From: Neobacillus mesonae
GTDB lineage: Bacteria > Bacillota > Bacilli > Bacillales > Cytobacillaceae
Direction: 5' to 3'
NCBI RefSeq assembly: GCF_001636315.1
Contig: NZ_KV440949.1
Coordinates: 4,978,084 to 5,042,083, forward strand
DNA: 64,000 nucleotides
Shown here one piece after another: positions 46,863 to 58,796 of the stretch. Each line of letters begins with the position of its first letter. The stretch's first letter is position 1. A program made the translations under genes and the position numbers. The notes beneath the pieces are model-generated. The model was given only the letters and a program-made list of their open reading frames with translations. It was not told the DNA's origin and did no database searches.

Positions 46863-46895
46863 AAACGCTTGGGACCGCCAAGCGTTTCAATATAT
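46863..46895 (-). terminator. Intrinsic terminator (minus strand)
   Basis: AAACGCTTGG and CCAAGCGTTT form a perfect 10-bp stem with a 5-base loop. On the minus strand it overlaps the kinase stop codon and runs into TTTTTT; it may also serve the ASCH gene on the plus strand. Confidence 0.85.
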
Positions 46896-49034
46896 TTTTG
46901 TGGGGCTAGGATTCTTAATAGGTAAAGAAATCGTAACAATGGTTCCTTCATTTATTTTACTCTTCACATCAATGGTCCCACCATGACCCGTAATAATCTT
47001 TTGGACGATACTCATGCCCATCCCGCTGCCAATGATTTCATGCTTTATCCGTTCATCACGATAAAAAGGGTCAAAAATCTGGCTAACATTCTCATTGGAT
47101 ATTCCAATCCCATTATCCTGGAATATAAGGTAACAGTGATCATTTTTCATAAAGATACTACATTGAATAGAAACGTCTCCATTTGGCTTAGCGTATTTAA
47201 CGGCATTAGAAAGAATGTTAGTGAATGCGCGATTCATTTTCTTTGGATCAATAAATAGTAATGGAAGCTCTTCTTCGTAAGTTTTTGTTATATTAATAGA
47301 ATGATCTGAATGTACTTTACACTCCATCTCAATCGCATGATCAACAAGAAAATCAATTGGATACCATTCCTTTTCAAAATGTAAATCGTCAACATGCAAC
47401 GAAGACAACTCAAATAAATCATTGATTAGACCAATAATGTGATTTGTTTGTAATAACACAAGTTCAACATATTCCTTCTGTTTTATTTCTGATAAATCAT
47501 ATTCTTTGATAACCTGCAAGAAGCCTTTTATTTTCGTTAATGGTGTCTTCAGATCATGTGAAACATGCAAAATAAGTTCTGTTCGGGCTTGTTCAGAGTG
47601 TTTTAACCGTTCAAGTGTATGTAATAATTGTTCATTAATGTGAGCTAATTCCTTTGTACGTTCGGAAACTTTTTCCTCTAGCATGTCAGCACGTAATTTT
47701 AATTGTTTTACTAATTGATGAATGGTCGAGCTCATTTCATTGAAAGTCAACGTAAGCTGTCCAATTTCATCATATGAATGAACCTGAATTTGACTTCCAT
47801 GCATTCCACTTGCGTTTTGTTGAATGGCTTTTGTTAATTGTTTAACGGGCCGAATAATTCTTCTAGAAAAAGCGTATGACAAAATAATTAACAGTCCACT
47901 TGTACAAAGAAGAAAAAGAACTAAACGATGAATAAATTGATTTAACTTATTGGAAAGTTGTTGATCAGTTTGAAGTATAATTGGCTGAATCATATCATTT
48001 TTAGGTATGCTGAAATGTAATGTCCATTTCGTATTTGGAATTTCTGCTGAAAGAATATAATACTGTTCACCAGCATCATCGGTCCATATTCGTTGGGTGC
48101 CATTTGATGTTTTTTCGTGATGTGGTAATTTTAAAGGAAATGTAGATTGAAATTGGCTGTTAAATCGATCCTCATTCCCTGCGACAAGGGTTCCGTCTTG
48201 GTCCACGATAAATGCGTAGGCATTCTGAGTATCAAGGGAAAGGCTTTCAATCCTGGTTGTTATTTTATTTATTGGAACGTCTGCGCCAATTACTCCTCGG
48301 AATGTACCGTCAGGCAAATAAACCGGCACAAGAGCAGTAATTACCCTGCCCCATTGAGTGACATCGTTATAATTTTTTGTCCACTTCACTGTTTTTTCTG
48401 GATTATGGGATTTATCAGCCATGTAATAAAACTCATGTTCTTGCACAATGATATCTGGCGGTAATTTATTGATTGCCACTTCATATGGCGCGTCCATTGC
48501 AGGATAAATAATCCATGCAGATTCTGAAAGAATAAAGAAAACCGCCTTTAATGTGGACTCGTTGTCGATTGTTTGTTTAAGCAAGGGTTCTAGTTGTTTT
48601 GTTTTCTGCAAATCTTTATAAATGAGGCCTGTTTTTGCTTTGGCATGAGCACTAATAAAAATATTTGCCCTATCGTTATGGCGGTCTACTGGTTCCCAAT
48701 AAAAACCCAATGGATGATTGACTAAACTAATTTTAGGAAGACTATTTAACTGACCTGGTGCCTGTGAAAATACATATTCTGACTGTTTTTGCAGCAACAA
48801 AAGATTCTTCTCTACTTTTTCAAAATCCTGCTGGATCAAGGTTGCTTCCATTTCAAGGTAAGCAAGATTCTGGTCAAGTGTTTCCTTAGTTGTTTTTTTT
48901 ATTTGTTCATCCGTTAACTGATGATAAATAGATTTTACTTCTATCACATTATAAATCCCAAACACAGCAAAAGAGATGAAGCATAATAAAAGCATAACGA
49001 ATAAAATTTTCAAAAATAGAGATTTTTTTATCAT
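46887..49034 (-). CDS. Sensor histidine kinase with extracellular dCache domain, divergent from the QHNDH operon
   Basis: About 715 residues: TM1 (residues ~8-28), an extracellular dCache/PDC domain of about 330 residues (VITALVPVYLPDGTFRGVIG, AYAFIVDQDGTLVAGNE), TM2 (LVLFLLCTSGLLIILSYAF), HAMP, coiled coil, HisKA (LHVSHDLKTPLTKIKGF) and HATPase_c (NILSNAVKYA, FQDNGIGIS, GSGMGMSIV). ATG 49034 is one base after the response regulator stop; no clear ribosome site, so translation is coupled. The large sensor domain should bind a small ligand outside the cell. The divergent amine dehydrogenase operon suggests an amine, which is inference. Confidence 0.9.
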   Translation of the reverse strand: MIKKSLFLKILFVMLLLCFISFAVFGIYNVIEVKSIYHQLTDEQIKKTTKETLDQNLAYLEMEATLIQQDFEKVEKNLLLLQKQSEYVFSQAPGQLNSLPKISLVNHPLGFYWEPVDRHNDRANIFISAHAKAKTGLIYKDLQKTKQLEPLLKQTIDNESTLKAVFFILSESAWIIYPAMDAPYEVAINKLPPDIIVQEHEFYYMADKSHNPEKTVKWTKNYNDVTQWGRVITALVPVYLPDGTFRGVIGADVPINKITTRIESLSLDTQNAYAFIVDQDGTLVAGNEDRFNSQFQSTFPLKLPHHEKTSNGTQRIWTDDAGEQYYILSAEIPNTKWTLHFSIPKNDMIQPIILQTDQQLSNKLNQFIHRLVLFLLCTSGLLIILSYAFSRRIIRPVKQLTKAIQQNASGMHGSQIQVHSYDEIGQLTLTFNEMSSTIHQLVKQLKLRADMLEEKVSERTKELAHINEQLLHTLERLKHSEQARTELILHVSHDLKTPLTKIKGFLQVIKEYDLSEIKQKEYVELVLLQTNHIIGLINDLFELSSLHVDDLHFEKEWYPIDFLVDHAIEMECKVHSDHSINITKTYEEELPLLFIDPKKMNRAFTNILSNAVKYAKPNGDVSIQCSIFMKNDHCYLIFQDNGIGISNENVSQIFDPFYRDERIKHEIIGSGMGMSIVQKIITGHGGTIDVKSKINEGTIVTISLPIKNPSPTKIY

Positions 49035-49035
49035 T

Positions 49036-49725
49036 CTAATCAAGGACAAATTTATAACCAACCCCTCTTACTGTTATAATATGCCTCGGATTTAATGGAT
49101 CCTCTTCAATCTTTTTCCGTAAACTCGAAATGTGAACGACTACTGTTCTTTTTTCGCTTAATGTATCAAAACCCCAAATTTTTTCTAGCATCTGTTCGGC
49201 GGTAAATACTTGGTCCGGTTGTTTCATAAGAAAAAGTAATAGCTCGAATTCTTTTGAGGTTAAGTGAATTTTTTCGTTATTACGGAAAAGTTCTCTGGCT
49301 TGAATATTGATCCTAAGATTGCCGAAATCAAGGTAACGATTGATCTGTTCTTTTTTCATTAGCAGTCTGTTTCTTCGTAAATGGGCGCGTATCCGGGCAA
49401 TTAAGACCTCAATATTAAACGGCTTTTCTATATAATCATCGGCTCCGATGCTTAATCCAAGTATTTTATCGTTGTCGGTGTTTTTACAACTTAGAAACAA
49501 AATTGGATTATTGGTATACATACGAATCATTTTGCAAAGTTCAAACCCATCCATATCAGGAAGCATAACATCAAGAAGAATAAGGGAGGGTGTGTGTTTT
49601 TTTACCATTTCCAATGCTTCACCGCCATATGAAGCAATCGAAAAAGGCATAGCTTCACGTTCGAAGCAAAACGTCAGCAGATTCTGGATATCAGGATCAT
49701 CCTCAATAATTAAAATTTCTTCCAT
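49036..49725 (-). CDS. OmpR/PhoB-family response regulator, divergent from the QHNDH operon
   Basis: The 229-residue protein has a receiver domain (IIEDDPDI, phospho-Asp in LILLDVMLPDMDG, LSCKNTD, Lys in IEKPFNIEVL) and a winged-helix domain (LTSKEFELLLFLMKQP, VVVHISSLRKKIEEDP, VRGVGYKFVL). It precedes its kinase by one base. The two start codons of the divergent operons are only about 142 bases apart, which suits direct control of the amine dehydrogenase promoter. In Paracoccus the analogous operon is activated by the AraC-type QhpR instead. Confidence 0.92.
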   Translation of the reverse strand: MEEILIIEDDPDIQNLLTFCFEREAMPFSIASYGGEALEMVKKHTPSLILLDVMLPDMDGFELCKMIRMYTNNPILFLSCKNTDNDKILGLSIGADDYIEKPFNIEVLIARIRAHLRRNRLLMKKEQINRYLDFGNLRINIQARELFRNNEKIHLTSKEFELLLFLMKQPDQVFTAEQMLEKIWGFDTLSEKRTVVVHISSLRKKIEEDPLNPRHIITVRGVGYKFVLD

Positions 49726-49867: not shown

Positions 49868-50188
49868 GTGAAACATTCAAAATCCTTAAATAAAAAAGGA
49901 AAATATTTAGAGTCCATCATACAGCAATCAAAAGAACCAGAAGTAGAAGGGTTAGCATTTTTGCCGATGGGGTGTACAAGTTTATTTGATCCTGGTTGGG
50001 AAACTGATTTCTCTGGAACTGGCCATGATGGATTATGTCAACCACACTACCGAGATATTTATGGCTGCTATGGTGATTGCTGGTGGGCAGCACAAGTTCC
50101 TGATGGATTAACGAATTATGGCTCTTGGGCTGATGAATGCCCGGTCGCTGCAAATGACTGGAAAAAATTAAAATATGTAAATCCATAA
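49868..50188 (+). CDS. qhpC: Quinohemoprotein amine dehydrogenase gamma subunit precursor
   Basis: The 106-residue precursor carries the CTQ cofactor. After a leader of about 29 residues the core matches the Paracoccus gamma subunit. The four Cys partner pairs have the same spacing as there: Cys36-Glu45, Cys57-Asp63, Cys71-Asp79 (thioether bridges) and Cys67-Trp73, which become cysteine tryptophylquinone. Diagnostic segments are CTSLFDPGWE, LCQPHYRDIYGCYGDCWW and WADECP. The leader (MKHSKSLNKKGKYLESIIQQ) is hydrophilic, so it is not a Sec signal; in the known system it is cut by QhpE and the protein leaves through QhpF. GTG 49868 follows AAGGGGG. Confidence 0.95.
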   Translation: MKHSKSLNKKGKYLESIIQQSKEPEVEGLAFLPMGCTSLFDPGWETDFSGTGHDGLCQPHYRDIYGCYGDCWWAAQVPDGLTNYGSWADECPVAANDWKKLKYVNP

Positions 50189-50204
50189 AGAGAGTGGTGA
50201 AATT

Positions 50205-51827
50205 GTGAAAAAGAGCAAATTACTCTTATTTTTTTTACTTTTAATTATAGCAATTATCTTTACAGCTTGCACGACTAAAGAAGTTGAAAATACCGAGAGG
50301 AAACCTCCTGGTAAGGATTACGTCATTAGTGAGCAAGTGGATCAAACATGTATGAGTTGTCATGCGGTGAATGAAGGAAAGCTTGAAAGAATTAGTGATG
50401 TAAGAAAAACTCCGGAAGGATGGCTCGGTACAGTCCAGAGAATGGAAAGGATTCATGGGGTGAAATTAACCGATGAACAGCGTGAACAAATCATTAAAGA
50501 TTTAAGCCGAGTCCAAGGCTTATCACCAGAGGAAGCGGAGCCTGTACAGTATTGGATGGCGAATAAGCCTTCTTATTCTGAAGCGAATACGGAAAACGAC
50601 GCTGTCAATAACAGTTGTATCTCTTGTCATGCCGGTGGAAGATTTGAAGCACAAAGAAGAACAGAACAAGAATGGAAAAATCTTAAAGATTTCCATTTAG
50701 TTATGTTTCCGTCCATTTATTTAAACCACCGTCATATGGATTGGCCAAAAGAAGCAGAAGAAGCGATTGCATATTTGGCAGCACAATATCAATATGACCA
50801 AGAAGAATGGGAGAATTGGAAAGGGAAAGATTACGACCCGTCTGGAAAATGGAAAGTAGTGGGATTCCAGGCCACGAAAGGTTTTTATATTGGTGAAAGT
50901 GAGTTTTCGAAAGAGGGGAATAAATTTAAAGAGACTAAAACCATTCAATTTTTGGATAGCGGTAAAAAAATGACACAGACAGGTCCGGTGGAGATGTATG
51001 GAGGATTTATGCTTCGCACACAATTCACAGATGATCAAGGAAGCAAACAACGTGGAACGTATAATATCTTAAAAAATGGCACCCTTATCAAAGGGGATTG
51101 GTCTCAAGCGAAGGATTTAGGTATAAGTGCTGAAGAGACGTATTTTAAAGTCCAAACAGATGTACCAGAAATTATATATATGGAAGAAAAAGCATTGAAA
51201 ATTGGCTCAACAGCTAAAATCCATATATACGGCATGAATTTAACCAAAGCAAAAAAAGAAGCTATATCCCTCCCTAATGGGGTAACCGTAAAGAGTTTTG
51301 TGACGGAGTCAGATGAAAAAGCTGTACTTACTATTGAAGTAAATAGAGAAATACTGCCAGGGCAATATGAAATCAAAGTCGAGAATAAAGCTGTGCATGA
51401 TCAGTTAACGGTCTATCAAAATATTGATTATCTCAAAATTGACCCTCCATATGGTGTAGCCAGGGTCGGTGACAGGGGGCCAATGCAGAAGGTGAGTACG
51501 CAATTTACAGCGTATGCATACAGCAATGGTAAGGACGGTAAAAAAGGTACTGAAGATGACCTAATGCTTATGCCTGTCAAAGCAGAATGGACTTTAAACG
51601 GATATCCGGACGAAGCGAATGCGGAAAAAGTAAAATTTATCGGAAGCATTGATGAAAATGGTTTATTTACTCCTCTTGGTGAGGGAATTAACGAAAAAAG
51701 AGAGTATACGCAGGAAAATGTCGGAGCTGTCACTGTTCATGCAAAAGTCACTATTAATGGAAAAACGTTGGAAGCAGAATCGCACCATATTTCCACTGTG
51801 CCTGACTATGTAAATAACGTTCATTAA
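50205..51827 (+). CDS. qhpA: Quinohemoprotein amine dehydrogenase alpha subunit, diheme, lipoprotein form
   Basis: The 540-residue protein starts with a lipoprotein signal (LLLIIAIIFTAC, lipidated Cys22). A cytochrome c domain follows, with two heme sites CMSCH (49-53) and CISCH (138-142). The rest (about 200-540) is beta-rich, corresponding to domains 2-4 of the Paracoccus alpha subunit. Hemes pass electrons from CTQ to an outside acceptor. In Gram-negatives the subunit is periplasmic and soluble; lipidation here would tether the complex to the membrane of a Gram-positive cell. GTG start, 16 bases after the gamma stop. Confidence 0.93.
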   Translation: MKKSKLLLFFLLLIIAIIFTACTTKEVENTERKPPGKDYVISEQVDQTCMSCHAVNEGKLERISDVRKTPEGWLGTVQRMERIHGVKLTDEQREQIIKDLSRVQGLSPEEAEPVQYWMANKPSYSEANTENDAVNNSCISCHAGGRFEAQRRTEQEWKNLKDFHLVMFPSIYLNHRHMDWPKEAEEAIAYLAAQYQYDQEEWENWKGKDYDPSGKWKVVGFQATKGFYIGESEFSKEGNKFKETKTIQFLDSGKKMTQTGPVEMYGGFMLRTQFTDDQGSKQRGTYNILKNGTLIKGDWSQAKDLGISAEETYFKVQTDVPEIIYMEEKALKIGSTAKIHIYGMNLTKAKKEAISLPNGVTVKSFVTESDEKAVLTIEVNREILPGQYEIKVENKAVHDQLTVYQNIDYLKIDPPYGVARVGDRGPMQKVSTQFTAYAYSNGKDGKKGTEDDLMLMPVKAEWTLNGYPDEANAEKVKFIGSIDENGLFTPLGEGINEKREYTQENVGAVTVHAKVTINGKTLEAESHHISTVPDYVNNVH

Positions 51828-51844
51828 ACGAATGGAGGAGACCA

Positions 51845-53287
51845 ATGCAACTTTCTAATTATCTTCGTTTTGAAACCGATAATCAACACTATTTATATCA
51901 CGGATTGACGGGTAATATCATTCATATAGATAAGGAAGCGATGGACTTTATCGATTTTTTTGAAACGAACGGCGAGAGAGAAGGTGACTCATACACACTA
52001 TATGATGAAAAGTTGAAAGATCAAGTGTTAGAAAGCTATCAATCTATCGTTACGGAATTTTCAGAGTTAGAAATCCTAACAATTGATCGAAATGAAAACG
52101 TTGGCCGCTTTTCCCAAACACCGGGTGCACCGCTCAATACGGAAAATATGCCGGTAAAGACGCTTGTTTTCCACTTGGTAAATGAATGTAACCTTCGCTG
52201 TACGTACTGTTATGCAGATGGGGGTGAATATGGTGCCCCTCAAAAGTACATGTCACAGCAAACGGCAAAGCAAGCGGTTGATTATTTGCTGGAACATAGC
52301 TACAACGAAAAATCAGTGACAATCGTCTTGTTTGGCGGGGAACCATTTTTGAACTGGGATGTACTGAGATTTATTGTTGAGTACAGTTCAGAGGAGGCTG
52401 AAAAGAGAGGTAAAAAGGTAACGTATTCACTTACTACAAATGGCACATTATTATCCCAGAAAAAAGTTGAGTTTCTAAATAAATATTCAGTTGGGGTTTC
52501 CGTAAGTATGGACGGTTCAGAAGAGTATCATGACAGAAATAGACCATTTGCGGGCGGTCAAGGTTCCTATCAAACGGTAAACAAGAATGTATCCCGTTTG
52601 ATTGAAAGTGAACGCACAGCACCAGTGGGAACACGTGTTACGGTTGCGAAAGGATTTGAAGAGATCGAAGCTTCGTTGAAACATTTATTATCGAAAGGTT
52701 TTTATGAAGTTGGCTTTGCACCGGTTACAGAATCTAACATGAGTCTAGCGCTGAATGACGTTGATCTACAAAAGCTGCTGGATCAATTTGAAGAGATTTC
52801 GGATGTGTATGTTAAACATGCCATCCAAAACGAATACCTAGGATTCTCAAATTTAACCAATCTATTAAGGGAACTTCATAATGGTGAAAATAAAGCTTAC
52901 GGCTGTGGAGCAGGTTTAGGATTTTTTGCTGTTAGCCCAGAAGGCAACCTTTACTTGTGTCATCGCTTTAATGAAGATGACCGTTTTAAAATGGGTGATA
53001 TTTATAAAGGGGTCAATCGTAAAAAGCAAAAGCAAATGCTTGAAGAACTTCATGTGGATAACAAAGTATCTTGTAAAACATGTTCGTTAAAACACATTTG
53101 TTCGGGCGGCTGTTATTACGAGGCGATGGAAAGACAAGGTGATTTCCGCAAGCCTAATGCTCATTACTGCAATTGGATGCATGACTGGATTACGATTGGG
53201 TTAAAGGCATATGTCCGTATAGCGGAGCAAAACCCAGGCTTTTTAGAGGCAATAGCCGGTGACAAAGTGAGGTGCTCAACAAGTTGA
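51845..53287 (+). CDS. qhpD: Radical SAM/SPASM enzyme forming gamma-subunit thioether crosslinks
   Basis: The 480-residue protein has the radical SAM cluster motif C115-x3-C119-x2-C122 (NECNLRCTYCYAD), then GGEPFLNWD, and a C-terminal SPASM domain with auxiliary Fe-S cysteines (YGCGAGLGFFAV, LYLCHRF, CKTCSLKHICSGGCYYE, HYCNWM). QhpD makes the three Cys-to-Asp/Glu thioether bonds in the gamma subunit in the cytoplasm, bound to the leader. N-terminal RiPP-recognition-like region precedes the barrel. The stop overlaps the beta subunit start (TGATG). Confidence 0.95.
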   Translation: MQLSNYLRFETDNQHYLYHGLTGNIIHIDKEAMDFIDFFETNGEREGDSYTLYDEKLKDQVLESYQSIVTEFSELEILTIDRNENVGRFSQTPGAPLNTENMPVKTLVFHLVNECNLRCTYCYADGGEYGAPQKYMSQQTAKQAVDYLLEHSYNEKSVTIVLFGGEPFLNWDVLRFIVEYSSEEAEKRGKKVTYSLTTNGTLLSQKKVEFLNKYSVGVSVSMDGSEEYHDRNRPFAGGQGSYQTVNKNVSRLIESERTAPVGTRVTVAKGFEEIEASLKHLLSKGFYEVGFAPVTESNMSLALNDVDLQKLLDQFEEISDVYVKHAIQNEYLGFSNLTNLLRELHNGENKAYGCGAGLGFFAVSPEGNLYLCHRFNEDDRFKMGDIYKGVNRKKQKQMLEELHVDNKVSCKTCSLKHICSGGCYYEAMERQGDFRKPNAHYCNWMHDWITIGLKAYVRIAEQNPGFLEAIAGDKVRCSTS

Positions 53288-54366
53288 TGAGATACAAAAA
53301 ATTCCCCATCCTATTACTTTCGCTTGCCTTGGTTATATTAATCATTTTTCCGGCACATGCTGAGCAGAAACAAGCCTATACGGAGCGGGTCTTCGTCTCC
53401 GGTTATGGAGAGGTTACTGTTATTGATCCTGCTGTCCCGAAAGTTGTGGCAAGTATAAAAGTCGATGGTCCGGTAAGGGATATGAGTTTTACAAAGGATG
53501 GAAAGATGGCGGTTGTTAATGCGAATGATCGCAAGACATTGTATGTGATTGATACGGTCGAAAACAAGGTAATTGACTCCATTACCTTAACAGGAAGAAC
53601 CGATAAAGGACTGCTTGACAGACGTATTTGGGGTGCCGCGATTTCACCAGATGGTTCAAAGGCTTATGCTTTTGTGACACAGGGTGAAAAACAAAAAAAT
53701 ATTTTCAAGTCGCTGCCCACAAAAATATTGGAAATTGATCTAAAAACGAAGGAAGTAACAAGAGATATTGAGGCGCCATATGGGGTCCATGTTCTCCAAT
53801 TTAAAGAAAATGATCCAAATACCATCTTTGTCTGGGGCTATGACCTCTACACACTTGATTTGAAAAATTGGAAGATTTCTTTAAAGAAGGGAATCAAAAA
53901 TTCTAAAAACCCTGAAAAAGAAGGCGTTGGCGGATTCCTATTGTTATTCCCGCGTGGACATGAAAATGGGTTTAACTCTTTTCCAATTATAAAGTCTTAT
54001 CCTGATGGCAGAGTGACTGAAGGCATAATGTGGATGAACATGAATACTGGAAAAGTGAAAAGTGTTGAATTTGACCAGGAACCTGTCGGCATGTTCTCAG
54101 CAGTGATTGATAAAGCCGAAACAACAGGCTATGTCATATTGAACGACTGGTACAAAGTAGATTTAAAAACAGGAAAGGTGTTAAAAAAATCCAAACCCCC
54201 GACGGGAAGTATCTATGGGATAAATACAAGTACTGATGAGAAAAAATTATACCTTGCAGCTGCAGGAAATCATTTTGTGGTGGCAGATCGGGAATTGAAT
54301 ATTGAAAAAATAATAGAATTACCGACAGATGGTTTTGATTTACGAGTTGTAAGAATCCAGAAGTAA
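53287..54366 (+). CDS. qhpB: Quinohemoprotein amine dehydrogenase beta subunit
   Basis: About 359 residues with a Sec signal peptide (MRYKKFPILLLSLALVILII, cut after PAHA) and a seven-bladed propeller of YVTN/amine dehydrogenase type (VFVSGYGEVTVIDPAVPKVV, AVVNANDRKTLYVIDTVENK). ATG 53287 shares its A with the qhpD TGA stop; GAGGTG lies upstream inside qhpD. The beta propeller holds the gamma subunit against the alpha subunit in the mature enzyme. Confidence 0.9.
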   Translation: MRYKKFPILLLSLALVILIIFPAHAEQKQAYTERVFVSGYGEVTVIDPAVPKVVASIKVDGPVRDMSFTKDGKMAVVNANDRKTLYVIDTVENKVIDSITLTGRTDKGLLDRRIWGAAISPDGSKAYAFVTQGEKQKNIFKSLPTKILEIDLKTKEVTRDIEAPYGVHVLQFKENDPNTIFVWGYDLYTLDLKNWKISLKKGIKNSKNPEKEGVGGFLLLFPRGHENGFNSFPIIKSYPDGRVTEGIMWMNMNTGKVKSVEFDQEPVGMFSAVIDKAETTGYVILNDWYKVDLKTGKVLKKSKPPTGSIYGINTSTDEKKLYLAAAGNHFVVADRELNIEKIIELPTDGFDLRVVRIQK

Positions 54367-54371
54367 ATGGT

Positions 54372-54400
54372 AGGGGAGGAGGCTCCCCTGCTGATTTTTT
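54372..54400 (+). terminator. Hairpin with T-run between qhpB and the maturation genes
   Basis: AGGGGAG and CTCCCCT (extendable to GT...GC) around a GAGG loop, then GCTGATTTTTT. Probably a partial terminator lowering expression of the downstream genes relative to the subunits. Confidence 0.65.
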
Positions 54401-54455
54401 ATCTATTACACATAAAGATTAGAATTAAGCAATTAAATAGAAACGAGGTGTTTAG

Positions 54456-55394
54456 GTGACGGAGTTTGCAATTGCAGTACAATCTATAAATGAAATTATC
54501 AATATTAAAGAGCCCTGGAATAGTTTACCCCAATTAAATCAAGTAGAACAAGAAATGCAGCAATTATTTTTTGAGGAATGGGAAAAGGTTTTTTCTAAAT
54601 ATAAGAAACCAACAAGAATATATTTTGGTTCGGAATTTTGCCAGTATCGTTTAATGCCATTATCAGTCGTTAAAAGAGCACTTGATTATTGTTGGACAAA
54701 TGGTTTTGAATTTACGTTTGCCACCCCTTATGTCCATGGTGCTAAATACGAAAAATTAGTAGAAATTCTTTTCTTTTTAAATAAAACAGCTGAAGAAACC
54801 GGTAAAACGATTGAGGTTGTGGTGAATGACTGGGGCATTTTCCATATTACACAAAAAAAACATCCGCATTTGAAGATAGCGGTTGGCCGCCTATTAAATA
54901 AAAACATACGCGATCCTCGGGTTGCAAATTTTTATAATGACGAAAGAGCACCGGAAAAAGGCAAACAATTTTTTAAACAATCTGGATTATTGTCCCAAAA
55001 TTTTAGTAAGTTTTTAAGTAAGGGCAATCTTGCTTCCATAGAATTTGATGAACTAATTCAAGGGTATGAGTGGCCTGATGAAGTAGAAAACTCGTATACA
55101 ACTACCTTCCATTATCCATTTGGGACGGTTGCCAGCGGCAGCGCCTGTATGGTTGGCTTTATGGATTCTGAAAAAAAAGATAAGTTCCGCGGGGACCCTA
55201 ACTGTACACAGCAATGCCAAAAATATGTCTTTGAGTTGAAAAACAGAATGATTCCTGAAATGGATACCGGAATTTATCAAAAAGGGAATACAGCGTTTTA
55301 TACGTATAAAAAAGAGATGATTCAAAAGGGATTGCAGCAAATTAATGAAATGAAGAATAGCAGGGTTGTTTATAGTTTGCGAATACCTGTTTAA
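54456..55394 (+). CDS. U32-family protein, UbiV-like, in the QHNDH operon
   Basis: The 312-residue protein from GTG 54456 resembles UbiV. Visible parallels are RIYFGSEFCQYR (UbiV has VIYLGEAVCSKR around its first cluster Cys) and the C-terminal Cys pattern Cys231, then Cys250-x3-Cys254 followed by QKY (UbiV has Cys-x12-Cys-x3-Cys-IKY). Cys62 would be the fourth ligand. UbiU/UbiV are U32 proteins with [4Fe-4S] clusters that hydroxylate the ubiquinone ring without O2. No protease catalytic motif is seen. In this operon I infer a hydroxylase partner role in CTQ formation. Confidence 0.85.
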   Translation: MTEFAIAVQSINEIINIKEPWNSLPQLNQVEQEMQQLFFEEWEKVFSKYKKPTRIYFGSEFCQYRLMPLSVVKRALDYCWTNGFEFTFATPYVHGAKYEKLVEILFFLNKTAEETGKTIEVVVNDWGIFHITQKKHPHLKIAVGRLLNKNIRDPRVANFYNDERAPEKGKQFFKQSGLLSQNFSKFLSKGNLASIEFDELIQGYEWPDEVENSYTTTFHYPFGTVASGSACMVGFMDSEKKDKFRGDPNCTQQCQKYVFELKNRMIPEMDTGIYQKGNTAFYTYKKEMIQKGLQQINEMKNSRVVYSLRIPV

Positions 55395-55412
55395 AAGAAA
55401 GGGGAGAGAAAC

Positions 55413-56408
55413 ATGAATATTTTGGCTCCATTGGGTGCTTACAGTGAGGTTGAAATGCTGGCAGAAAACGGGGCGAATGAATTCTACTGCGGAATCACAC
55501 CGACAGAATGGATTGATCGATATTCACCAGGTGTTTGGCTAAACCGCCGCAATCCGTATGCGGGCTTTCCTTCTTTTCAAGAGTTAAAAAAAGCGGTGGA
55601 AGCTTCTCATTCATACGGCATACCTGTATTTGTGACATTAAATGCCCCTTATTATATCGATGATCAATACCCGCTCTTGCTTGACTTGGTGAAATATTGT
55701 TCAAGGGAAATTGGCGTTGATGCTTTCATTATCAGTGATATCGGACTAATGACGGCTGTTAAGGAACAAATTCCTGATGCCAAAATTCATGTCAGCAGTC
55801 TAGCAGCTTCGATGAACGAAGGAAGTATTGAGCTCTATAAAGAAATAGGTGTGGACCGGATTGTATTGCCGCGTTCTGTGCAGCTTGATGAAATAACTGC
55901 CTTAAAAAAAGCAGCGGGTGAGATTGAAATCGAAGTTTTTTTATTAAATGATGGCTGTGTCTATGAAGAAAGCTTTTGTATGACGACCCATAACAGGGTA
56001 AGTGCTTTTTGTTCGCAGATACAATGGGATTATCAATATTTTTCTGCGAATGGAAACAAACAAATAAAAGACCTAGAAAAAGATAAATTAGATGCGCAAA
56101 TCAATGATTATCGGGAATATGTGTGGTTTGTTAATGATTGTGGCGGCAAGGTCGCCAATGATGGCTTACCGTTGGGACCATGCGGCTTGTGTGCTCTTCC
56201 TAAATTAAAGGAAGCGGGTGTGGATTCCCTGAAAATTGTCGGCAGGGAAGGGGCTGCATACCGGAAAATTGCTAGCGTGCAAATGGTAAAGGCTGTGATA
56301 GCTAAGATGGAGTTAACCAAGAATCAGTCTAAGGTGATCGAAGCGTGCAAAGAAATTAGGAATCAGCCGCAATTTTGTGAATCCGGTTTAATGTGCTATT
56401 ACCGATAG
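55413..56408 (+). CDS. U32-family protein, UbiU-like, in the QHNDH operon
   Basis: The 331-residue protein has the U32 core (LAPLGAYSEVEMLAENGANE, VFVTLNAPYYIDD, AFIISDIGLMTAVKE, IHVSSLAASMNEGSIELYKE, VDRIVLPRSVQLDEI). The cluster cysteines are Cys182-x6-Cys189 (UbiU: Cys169-x6-Cys176), Cys200, and Cys257/Cys260, followed by SLKIVGREGAAYRKIASVQM, which parallels UbiU SVKIEGRQRSPAYVSQV. It starts 18 bases after the UbiV-like gene. Together they should form a heterodimer with two [4Fe-4S] clusters. Predicted role: O2-independent hydroxylation of the gamma-subunit Trp, in place of QhpG. Confidence 0.87.
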   Translation: MNILAPLGAYSEVEMLAENGANEFYCGITPTEWIDRYSPGVWLNRRNPYAGFPSFQELKKAVEASHSYGIPVFVTLNAPYYIDDQYPLLLDLVKYCSREIGVDAFIISDIGLMTAVKEQIPDAKIHVSSLAASMNEGSIELYKEIGVDRIVLPRSVQLDEITALKKAAGEIEIEVFLLNDGCVYEESFCMTTHNRVSAFCSQIQWDYQYFSANGNKQIKDLEKDKLDAQINDYREYVWFVNDCGGKVANDGLPLGPCGLCALPKLKEAGVDSLKIVGREGAAYRKIASVQMVKAVIAKMELTKNQSKVIEACKEIRNQPQFCESGLMCYYR

Positions 56409-56416
56409 GTGATTAA

Positions 56417-58093
56417 ATGGAATTAAAACTTGTGAAGTTTATAATACCGTATTGGCGACGTTTGCTGCTCGTTTTGCTATTAAGCATTGTTGGAACTGTT
56501 CTCTTTATCCTTCAGCCGCTTATTGGCAAATTTATTATTGATGAAGTATTTGTGCAGAAGCAATATCCGTTCGAAAGAGCACTTGGAATAGCTGTATTGC
56601 TGCTTTTTTCAACTTATCTTATTTCTGCTATAACTAGATTTATTTATATGAAAACTAGCCTTCAAATGGTTACTCTTATGCGGACTGAATTTTATCATCA
56701 TTTATTAAATTTACCGATACAATTATTTCGAAAAAGAAGAATTGGAGATTTAACTACCCGTCTAAATGAAGATATTAGCGAAATACAGCGTTTATATACA
56801 GATATTATTTTGCAAATTATTAATCTGTGCCTCACTTTATTATTCAGTTTAATTGTATTATTTCTATTTGACTGGATGATGACACTTTTTTGTATGATTT
56901 TGATGCCGATTTTGCTTTGGGGTACTCACAAATTCAGAAATTTATTATTCAAGGAAAACCTAGAAATGAAAGAAATCGGTTCAAGGATTCAAAGCTTTTT
57001 ATTTGAGTCACTATCATCGATGAAATTTATTCGATCAGGAAGCTATAATCCTTGGATGCAAAATAAATATACGAGCCTCCTTGAAAGTGGGAATAAGCAA
57101 TCGATTAAATTAGCCGTTATCAATACATGTGCACAAAGTGTACCGCAATTCATGATTTGGTTTTCGACCATAACTCTTGTGTGGTTTTTAGGGATAAAGG
57201 TATTGGAAGGTTCATTAACACTCGGAGCATTATTAGCATTTACCGCATACCAGGCAAATTTATATAGTTCCGTACAAGGGTTTGCCCAGGTCTACATCCG
57301 TATTCAATCTGGAAAGGCAGCAGTTAATAGAATCAATGAATTTTTTAGCATTCCAAAAGAAACCGATGGAAATGGGGAAATATCTGCCTTTCATTCTATC
57401 ATTGACTTGAAAGGGATCCATTTTTCCTATGATAATTCCAAAAGAATTCTTGAAAACCTATCGTTCTCTATTGAAAAAGGGGAGAAAATAGCCATAATTG
57501 GCGAGAGCGGATCTGGAAAAAGTACTTTAGTCTCTTTATTAGCAAGAATTTATCGTCCTACCCAAGGTACTATTTATTGTGATGGTGTTGATATACAAAT
57601 GGTCAAAAAGGAAAGCTGGCATAAACAAATTTGTTTTGTCTCTCATGATGATCCGATTTGGTTTGGGACAATCGAGGAATTTCTCCAGTCTGGGAAAAAG
57701 AAGTTCTCACTAATGGAAATGGAAAAGGCTCTAATGGATGTAGATTTATGGAATACAATAAAACAACTTCCTGGTATGCTAAAGGCCGAACTCAGTGAAC
57801 GGGGTGTGAATTTGTCGGCAGGTCAAAAGCAAAGGCTGCTTTTAGCTCGGGCCATTTTACTTAACCCTGAAATTCTTGTCCTTGATGAGGCCACATGTCA
57901 TCTTGACTCAGTAGCGGAACAACAAATTTTTAAGATTTTACAAGATAAAATGACTGATAAAACAATTATTGTTATAACGCACCGTCTACAAAATATTGGC
58001 TGGGTAAATCAAGTAGTGCGAATGGATCAAGGACAGATTGTTTATGAGGAGGGAGTCTTTGCAAATGGGAGGCTGGCGAAGATGTCAAACTAA
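56417..58093 (+). CDS. qhpF: ABC exporter of the QHNDH gamma subunit
   Basis: The 558-residue half transporter has six N-terminal membrane helices (ABC type I exporter fold) and a nucleotide-binding domain with Walker A GESGSGKST, Q-loop region FVSHDDP (His rather than Gln), signature LSAGQKQR, Walker B ILVLDEAT and the switch VITHRL. It most resembles peptide/lipid exporters. In Paracoccus, QhpF exports the crosslinked gamma subunit. The start is 9 bases after the UbiU-like stop. Confidence 0.9.
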   Translation: MELKLVKFIIPYWRRLLLVLLLSIVGTVLFILQPLIGKFIIDEVFVQKQYPFERALGIAVLLLFSTYLISAITRFIYMKTSLQMVTLMRTEFYHHLLNLPIQLFRKRRIGDLTTRLNEDISEIQRLYTDIILQIINLCLTLLFSLIVLFLFDWMMTLFCMILMPILLWGTHKFRNLLFKENLEMKEIGSRIQSFLFESLSSMKFIRSGSYNPWMQNKYTSLLESGNKQSIKLAVINTCAQSVPQFMIWFSTITLVWFLGIKVLEGSLTLGALLAFTAYQANLYSSVQGFAQVYIRIQSGKAAVNRINEFFSIPKETDGNGEISAFHSIIDLKGIHFSYDNSKRILENLSFSIEKGEKIAIIGESGSGKSTLVSLLARIYRPTQGTIYCDGVDIQMVKKESWHKQICFVSHDDPIWFGTIEEFLQSGKKKFSLMEMEKALMDVDLWNTIKQLPGMLKAELSERGVNLSAGQKQRLLLARAILLNPEILVLDEATCHLDSVAEQQIFKILQDKMTDKTIIVITHRLQNIGWVNQVVRMDQGQIVYEEGVFANGRLAKMSN

Positions 58094-58796
58094 CAAGGAT
58101 TTAGGAATTGGTAAGGGGATTAAAATTGCTCATGTTGATAGTGGAATTAATCGATGGCATCCCCATATTAACAATGTTGCAGGCGGGATTGCTTTGAAGG
58201 TTACGCGGGAAGGCAAGATTGAACTAAGTAATGACATCACAGATCGTTTAGGGCATGGTACTGCTGTAGCAGGTGTTTTTTCGGAACAGGTTCCTGAAGC
58301 TCAAGTGTGGGCAGTTAAAGTTTTTGATCAAGAACTCTTTACTCATATCGAGGTTTTGTGCGCAGCTATGGAATGGTGTATACAGCAAGAAATGGATATT
58401 ATCAATTTAAGTTTAAGTGTAAAAAAAGATATAAAAGCTTTTCAGGAAATTTGCGAGGAAGTAGAAAAGGCGGGAATTATTATTGTGTCTTCGTGTGATA
58501 AAAGACGTGGATTAAAGTGGCCGGGAAGTTATCAATCGGTATTTGGTGTTGAAACGGGAGAATTAGCCCGACCGGATTTATGTTTTTATAATCCTGATGA
58601 AGAAATTTCATTTCAGGCTTATGGATTGCCACGACAGCTTGAAGGACCAATGCAGAAATATAATTTGAATGGCCATAGTTTTGCAGCTGCCTATGTTTCA
58701 TCTTATATTGCAAAAATAAAGGAGAAATATGAGGTTAAATCAAAGAATGAAATAATGATGAAGTTAAAAGAAATTTGTTTAGAAGAAGTTCTATAA
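58065..58796 (+). CDS. qhpE: Cytosolic subtilisin-like leader protease
   Basis: The 243-residue S8 protease from ATG 58065 (9 bases after GAGGAGGG) overlaps the qhpF 3' end by 29 bases. Catalytic residues: Asp in IAHVDSGINRWHP, His in RLGHGTAVAGVF, Ser in LNGHSFAAAYVSS (GHSFAA replaces the usual GTSxA). No signal peptide or propeptide, as for QhpE, which works in the cytosol and removes the gamma-subunit leader before export. This fits its place as the last gene of the operon, before a strong terminator. Confidence 0.9.
   Translation: MGGWRRCQTNKDLGIGKGIKIAHVDSGINRWHPHINNVAGGIALKVTREGKIELSNDITDRLGHGTAVAGVFSEQVPEAQVWAVKVFDQELFTHIEVLCAAMEWCIQQEMDIINLSLSVKKDIKAFQEICEEVEKAGIIIVSSCDKRRGLKWPGSYQSVFGVETGELARPDLCFYNPDEEISFQAYGLPRQLEGPMQKYNLNGHSFAAAYVSSYIAKIKEKYEVKSKNEIMMKLKEICLEEVL

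Follow-up and report, generated by a model that had tools for sequence, protein, structure and literature searches.

The biogenesis of CTQ, the protein-derived tryptophylquinone of quinohemoprotein amine dehydrogenase (QHNDH, qhp genes), has been described as dependent on QhpG, an enzyme that uses O2 and that, with QhpD present, adds both oxygens to the tryptophan of the gamma subunit (PMC7876137). As that report presents it, the reactions of QhpD, QhpG and QhpE are all cytoplasmic and loss of QhpG leads to a quinone-less enzyme in the system studied (PMC7876137). The initial annotation of the DNA analysed here had ascribed this biochemistry to Paracoccus; the work in PMC7876137 used Pseudomonas putida proteins.

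The other described systems of relevance are hydroxylases of the U32 family. UbiU-UbiV is a heterodimer in which each subunit carries a 4Fe-4S cluster (PMC6747719), and even in air the ubiquinone that it makes takes up no label from 18O2 (PMC10470549), while the hydroxyl oxygen of anaerobic ubiquinone has been traced to prephenate (PMC11574389). The characterised U32 oxidases, as treated in the latter report, act on ubiquinone and RNA (PMC11574389).

The qhp operon of Neobacillus mesonae

We analysed a stretch of 64,000 nucleotides of Neobacillus mesonae DNA (the window). Profile searches identified an operon of eight genes at 49868-58796, in the order QhpC-A-D-B, U32V, U32U, QhpF and QhpE, with a two-component system divergent from it:

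46887..49725, - strand: dCache histidine kinase and OmpR-type regulator, adjoining qhp in 9 of the 14 Bacillales loci searched
49868..50188, + strand: QhpC, QHNDH gamma subunit with the CTQ cysteine and tryptophan, presumed substrate of the U32 pair (PF08992, 88.9 bits; NF037958, 137.6 bits, cut-off 50; residues kept)
50205..51827, + strand: QhpA, diheme alpha subunit (TIGR03908, 393 bits, cut-off 274)
51845..53287, + strand: QhpD, radical SAM maturase forming the thioethers (TIGR03906, 448.6 bits, slightly below the cut-off of 453)
53272..54366, + strand: QhpB, beta-propeller beta subunit (TIGR03907, 93.8 bits, cut-off 223.2; position; 55-69% identity in the nearer Bacillales loci)
54456..55394, + strand: U32V, UbiV-like subunit (Cys62/231/250/254)
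55413..56408, + strand: U32U, UbiU-like subunit (PF01136, 131 bits, cut-off 22.4; Cys182/189/200 plus 257/260/322/328)
56417..58093, + strand: QhpF, ABC exporter (PF00664 and PF00005; equal position in 13 Bacillota loci)
58038..58796, + strand: QhpE, subtilisin-like leader peptidase (PF00082, 65 bits; NF049966, 143.2 bits, cut-off 165; overlaps QhpF, start approximate)

The alpha, beta and gamma subunits, QhpD, QhpE and QhpF are all encoded in the operon; the QhpD, beta subunit and QhpE models score below cut-off and the gene order is as expected. The gamma gene is the only one found in the genome by the PF08992 search. As the initial annotation had it, two adjacent proteins lie between the beta subunit and the exporter, U32V, a putative U32 protein, from 54456 and the U32 protein U32U from 55413 (between QhpB and QhpF), and no QhpG is encoded within 49868-58796. 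The search for qhpG elsewhere in the genome, which that annotation had proposed as a check, gave the same answer. As protein query we used the QhpG of locus L025 (326.7 bits with NF049967, cut-off 240; best PDB match 7ctq), which had no match in the genome of the window, and the best score with NF049967 itself was 40.5 bits. Such sub-cut-off matches occurred in 14 of the 14 control genomes too, so that scores of about 40 bits indicate a generic flavoprotein only. Elsewhere the genome has two stronger PF01136 genes and a weak one; the two strong ones we take to be TrhP-like.

No SCP2 (UbiT-like) domain was found among the eight operon proteins in a domain search. The divergent histidine kinase and OmpR-type regulator are a possible regulatory pair of the qhp operon, a link that we infer. 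None of the 19 matches to an Fnr-type box in the window falls upstream of the operon between 49733 and 49868, and the 19 are no excess over the 27.5 expected by chance.

Distribution of the U32 pair and QhpG

A first scan with the gamma subunit of the window against GTDB-representative contigs gave 21 loci, including a chance match (L026, 14 residues). In 13 of the 13 Bacillota loci U32V and U32U lie between QhpB and QhpF, and the pair was also found in two Acidobacteriota loci (L022, L023) and in a Telmatospirillum bin (L024); there was none within the fetched stretch of L019, L020, L021 and L025. Surveys with PF08992 then gave matches in 7 of 398 Pseudomonadota genomes, 9 of 397 genomes of the order of the window, 21 of 297 Acidobacteriota genomes and, for the order to which the Telmatospirillum bin belongs, 17 of 297 genomes above the cut-off (18 with E<=0.001). 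NF049967 and U32V alignment A1 were then run on each of the 72 positive handles; A1 matched 39 of them, and neighbourhoods were annotated with HMMs built for this study. The genome-wide profile is based on U32V; wherever a fetched locus has U32V, U32U is next to it. We dropped L026, G1287 (gamma match below cut-off) and six duplicate handles (G011, G013, G012, G004, G005 and G002) and counted 65 genomes.

Among these 65 distinct qhp-positive genomes, 28 have the pair only, 24 QhpG only, five both and five a divergent QhpG-like flavoprotein, while three are unclassed. The pair is found in all 16 Bacillales genomes, none of which has QhpG, with U32V starting about 4.5-4.8 kb past the gamma gene in the measured loci; the Pseudomonadota draw is the reverse (QhpG in seven of seven, the pair in none). 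The order of Telmatospirillum is mixed (n=17), with the pair in eight genomes, QhpG in six (including one fragment at the edge of a contig), the divergent flavoprotein in two and neither in one, G1213, where the contig ends and which is a near-twin of the U32-type G1323. The Acidobacteriota draw (n=21) is mixed as well, with QhpG only in 11, the pair only in three, both in four and the divergent flavoprotein in three; four further Acidobacteriota bins from the first scan have the pair (G017), both (G015) or are unclassed (G014, G016). Overall, the two systems show avoidance: 28 genomes have only the pair and 24 only QhpG, against five with both and eight with neither (Fisher p 1.3e-6, not corrected for kinship).

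The initial annotation had expected the pair and QhpG to be mutually exclusive across operons. This is largely what we see, since both systems occur in only 5 of the 33 U32-positive genomes, and near one qhp locus only in G015; strict exclusion does not hold, with five of the 65 genomes having both and five the divergent flavoprotein. Two outcomes that the annotation had named as refuting, a QhpG elsewhere in the genome and co-occurrence of the pair with QhpG in the majority of cases, were sought and did not appear. Several assignments deserve mention. Only four Acidobacteriota QhpG proteins exceed the curated NF049967 cut-off (in G015, G854, G1066 and G1090), and for the remainder (176-238 bits) acceptance was based on their location inside the qhp locus, except in G1001, where the match is on a different contig from the 6.6 kb qhp contig. 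G1072, scored as pair only, has a QhpG-like protein of 183 bits away from qhp, which counts against full replacement. In G078, G082 and G166 a distance of 24-33 kb separates QhpG from the gamma gene. For G497 the coordinates, rather than a fetched neighbourhood, put 4.5 kb between the pair and the gamma gene.

Some of the loci stand apart. In four QhpG-containing Acidobacteriota genomes U32 pairs are found off the qhp contig (L164:8442-10444, L165:10015-11900, L166:10035-11995 and L167:8274-10276), possibly as an O2-independent backup. G015 has a U32 pair and a second QhpB (L163:9883-12939, with L020) about 14 kb from its QhpG-bearing qhp locus, perhaps a hydroxylase exchange in progress. In G324 (L121, L122) about 29 kb separates two sets of QHNDH genes, and QhpG, QhpE and QhpF are beside one of them only. 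Five genomes that have neither QhpG proper nor the pair encode a short, divergent QhpG-like flavoprotein in the qhp locus (30-57 bits with our own QhpG model), which is a candidate third hydroxylase:

L141:11293-12309, divergent QhpG-like flavoprotein
L142:6457-7536, divergent QhpG-like flavoprotein
L143:5463-6701, divergent QhpG-like flavoprotein
L144:13878-14915, divergent QhpG-like flavoprotein
L145:13827-14936, divergent QhpG-like flavoprotein

Association of U32V with qhp in control genomes

The presence of U32V also follows qhp when genomes without qhp are considered. With alignment A1, matches were obtained in seven of 297 Acidobacteriota genomes, all of them qhp-positive (7 of 21 against 0 of 276 qhp-negative genomes, Fisher p 3e-9); in four of the seven (G854, G1066, G929 and G1004) the pair is not at the qhp locus, those of G854 and G1066 being near-twins. 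In Bacillales all nine qhp-positive genomes matched, against none of 80 qhp-negative genomes sampled from 388 (p 1.6e-12). Among qhp-negative genomes of the (alphaproteobacterial) Telmatospirillum order, one of 66 sampled from 279 had a match, of 130 bits. The Bacillales and Telmatospirillum-order controls are taken as qhp-negative by being in the survey draw and absent from the PF08992 matches, most of them not being listed individually.

The single qhp-negative match is a divergent U32V/U32U pair of G1173 (L181:9252-18384, - strand), which adjoins a methyltransferase, a carbamoyltransferase and two radical SAM proteins, one a split radical SAM/SPASM protein and the other B12-binding. This locus is perhaps a peptide-modifying cluster that likewise uses a U32 pair.

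Target residues and exchange of hydroxylase type

Cys7, Glu16, Cys27, Asp33, Cys37, Cys41, Trp43 and Asp49 are identical in 64 of 64 aligned gamma subunits (26 of U32 type, 25 of QhpG type, 5 of divergent type and 8 without a local hydroxylase), with Trp42, the neighbour of the target Trp43, varying; the numbering of the thioether residues other than Trp42/43 and Asp33 is presumed. The gamma subunit of the window, outside these 64, has all eight CTQ and thioether positions in the alignment. As the eight residues are invariant in every type, U32-type gamma subunits retain the complete chemistry of CTQ and the thioethers and require the same oxygens.

On a QhpD tree of 59 rows (26 U32, 23 QhpG, 5 both, 5 divergent), from which we excluded L121, L137, L147 and any locus whose QhpD could not be used, the type switches at least five times when any flavoprotein is set against U32 only, and eight changes are counted with four states. 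The clearest exchange is that of L131 (U32), sister to L134 (QhpG) with support 99/99 on the QhpD tree, while on the U32U tree the U32U of L131 clusters with other pairs of the Telmatospirillum order (98/99). Four independent contrasts, of which two to three went in the expected direction and at most one against, are suggestive and not significant (median p 0.25).

Proposed role of the pair

We conclude that the pair is genuine and conserved and that it is linked to CTQ biogenesis. Its standing in QhpG's place is well supported by the phylogenetic profile, the position in the operon, the exchange of type on the QhpD tree and the unchanged target tryptophan, and we consider it probable that it replaces QhpG as the hydroxylase of the gamma-subunit tryptophan, without O2. 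Against this reading weigh the genomes with both systems, the U32V match in a qhp-negative genome, the non-significant profile comparison with UbiV, the small number of independent contrasts and the absence of an Fnr-type box upstream of the operon. Complex formation, cluster binding, tryptophan as the substrate, its dihydroxylation, O2 independence and the oxygen donor are what we infer, the substrate and O2 independence by analogy with the chemistry of the family. The two U32 proteins would form a heterodimeric Fe-S hydroxylase. QhpD would crosslink QhpC in the cytoplasm, after which the pair would add two hydroxyls to the conserved tryptophan (Trp43 in the Pseudomonas protein) with oxygen taken not from O2 but from another donor, perhaps prephenate. 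QhpE would then cut off the leader, QhpF would export the protein and the oxidation to CTQ would be completed outside the cell. UbiUV works in air too, so that O2 independence need not imply an anaerobic host.

The reading that competes best, although it is unlikely, is that the pair modifies the gamma subunit in another way than QhpG, adding one oxygen only or acting on another residue, with the remaining oxygen introduced autocatalytically or via the hemes of the alpha subunit. The number of oxygens that the pair adds is drawn from the analogy with QhpG, which leaves room for a single one, and PMC7876137 mentions autocatalytic mono-hydroxylation as a proposal for other tryptophylquinone proteins (the first hydroxylations in MADH and LodA). 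However, in the same report QhpG supplies both oxygens and its loss gives the quinone-less enzyme, and the pair avoids QhpG across genomes as a full substitute should. We hold it still less probable that the pair is an accessory factor of the maturation complex (an Fe-S or electron carrier, a chaperone or a leader peptidase) and that an unrelated O2-dependent oxygenase encoded elsewhere hydroxylates the tryptophan. PF01136 is named as a peptidase family and the genome of the window does encode generic flavoproteins (up to 40.5 bits with NF049967), but the characterised four-cysteine U32 relatives are hydroxylation proteins (PMC6747719, PMC10470549 and PMC11574389). Moreover, the leader peptidase QhpE and the exporter are still in the operon, and a generic oxygenase leaves unexplained why the pair replaces QhpG in three groups. 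Service in ubiquinone synthesis or RNA hydroxylation, with a place in the operon by chance, is suggested by the family resemblance to UbiU/UbiV and TrhP/RlhA and is highly improbable, as the position is constant in 16 of 16 Bacillales genomes and presence tracks qhp, scores lie far below the UbiU and TrhP cut-offs and the tree separates the family from the E. coli proteins, the genome has two other strong U32 genes, and the quinone of Bacillales is menaquinone, not ubiquinone.

Returning to the replacement of QhpG by the pair, we favour, with less assurance, the fuller statement that the pair, as an O2-independent dihydroxylase of peptidyl tryptophan, would be the first U32 enzyme to hydroxylate a protein side chain; it would probably use prephenate oxygen and would have changed places with QhpG on several occasions, with both kept in a few Acidobacteriota, much as E. 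coli keeps both O2-dependent and O2-independent ubiquinone hydroxylases. If true, the replacement would explain enzyme production by Bacillales and other qhp bacteria without QhpG, and protein side chains would join the quinone and RNA substrates that PMC11574389 gives for U32 oxidases. QhpC would then also provide this hydroxylase family with a substrate that is small, soluble and genetically encoded. Searches of open-access papers, subscription papers and preprints being outside their scope, gave none that links tryptophylquinone, quinohemoprotein or amine dehydrogenase to U32 proteins, UbiU or oxygen independence, and in a search for U32 proteins in RiPP clusters 'U32 family peptidase' was absent from the 12 papers listed of 203.

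Comparison with known hydroxylases

QhpG (peptidyl tryptophan dihydroxylase; NF049967, PDB 7ctq) is found in the same operons as the pair, would act at the same step on the same tryptophan, and each replaces the other across genomes; however, it is an FAD monooxygenase that uses O2 and is unrelated to the pair in sequence. LodB, GoxB and MauG likewise complete protein-derived tryptophylquinones, but are described as flavin or heme enzymes acting on a tryptophan that has already been hydroxylated once (PMC7876137).

The initial annotation had likened the cysteine patterns of the two proteins to those of UbiV and UbiU. The likeness stands for U32V Cys62, 250 and 254, which fall on UbiV Cys39, 193 and 197, and for U32U Cys182, 189 and 200, which together with Cys243 align with UbiU Cys169, 176, 193 and 232; it fails for U32V Cys231, three positions off UbiV Cys180, and for U32U Cys257 and 260, which lie beyond the UbiU ligands. 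In our alignments four cysteines are invariant in U32V (90 of 90) and seven in U32U (80 of 80), while only 44 of 80 U32U sequences retain Cys243. Unlike UbiU, U32U has four additional invariant cysteines (Cys257, 260, 322 and 328), to judge from the alignment a possible extra metal site, through which U32U may bind an additional cluster that contacts QhpD or exchanges electrons with it.

Membership in UbiU/UbiV, which had also been proposed, did not hold. U32U scores 95.1 bits with the UbiU model NF047963 (cut-off 440), and U32V has no match to either the UbiU or the UbiV model (NF047963, NF047965), while a profile comparison of U32V with UbiV was not significant (HHalign probability 2.5%), so that U32V resembles UbiV chiefly through its four cysteines. 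PDB sequence searches with both families gave nothing at a useful E-value, nor did a Foldseek search with U32V give a match at E<=0.001. U32U aligns with TrhP and RlhA, which hydroxylate tRNA and rRNA, over 282 and 200 columns (HHalign 99.4% and 98.4%), but scores only 85.7 bits with the TrhP model NF011996 (cut-off 534), and on the U32U tree the family is split from E. coli UbiU, TrhP and RlhA with support 100/99. With UbiU/UbiV the qhp proteins share the arrangement as an adjacent pair of two unlike proteins, U32V being a putative member of the U32 family; they differ in their presumed substrate, a protein tryptophan.
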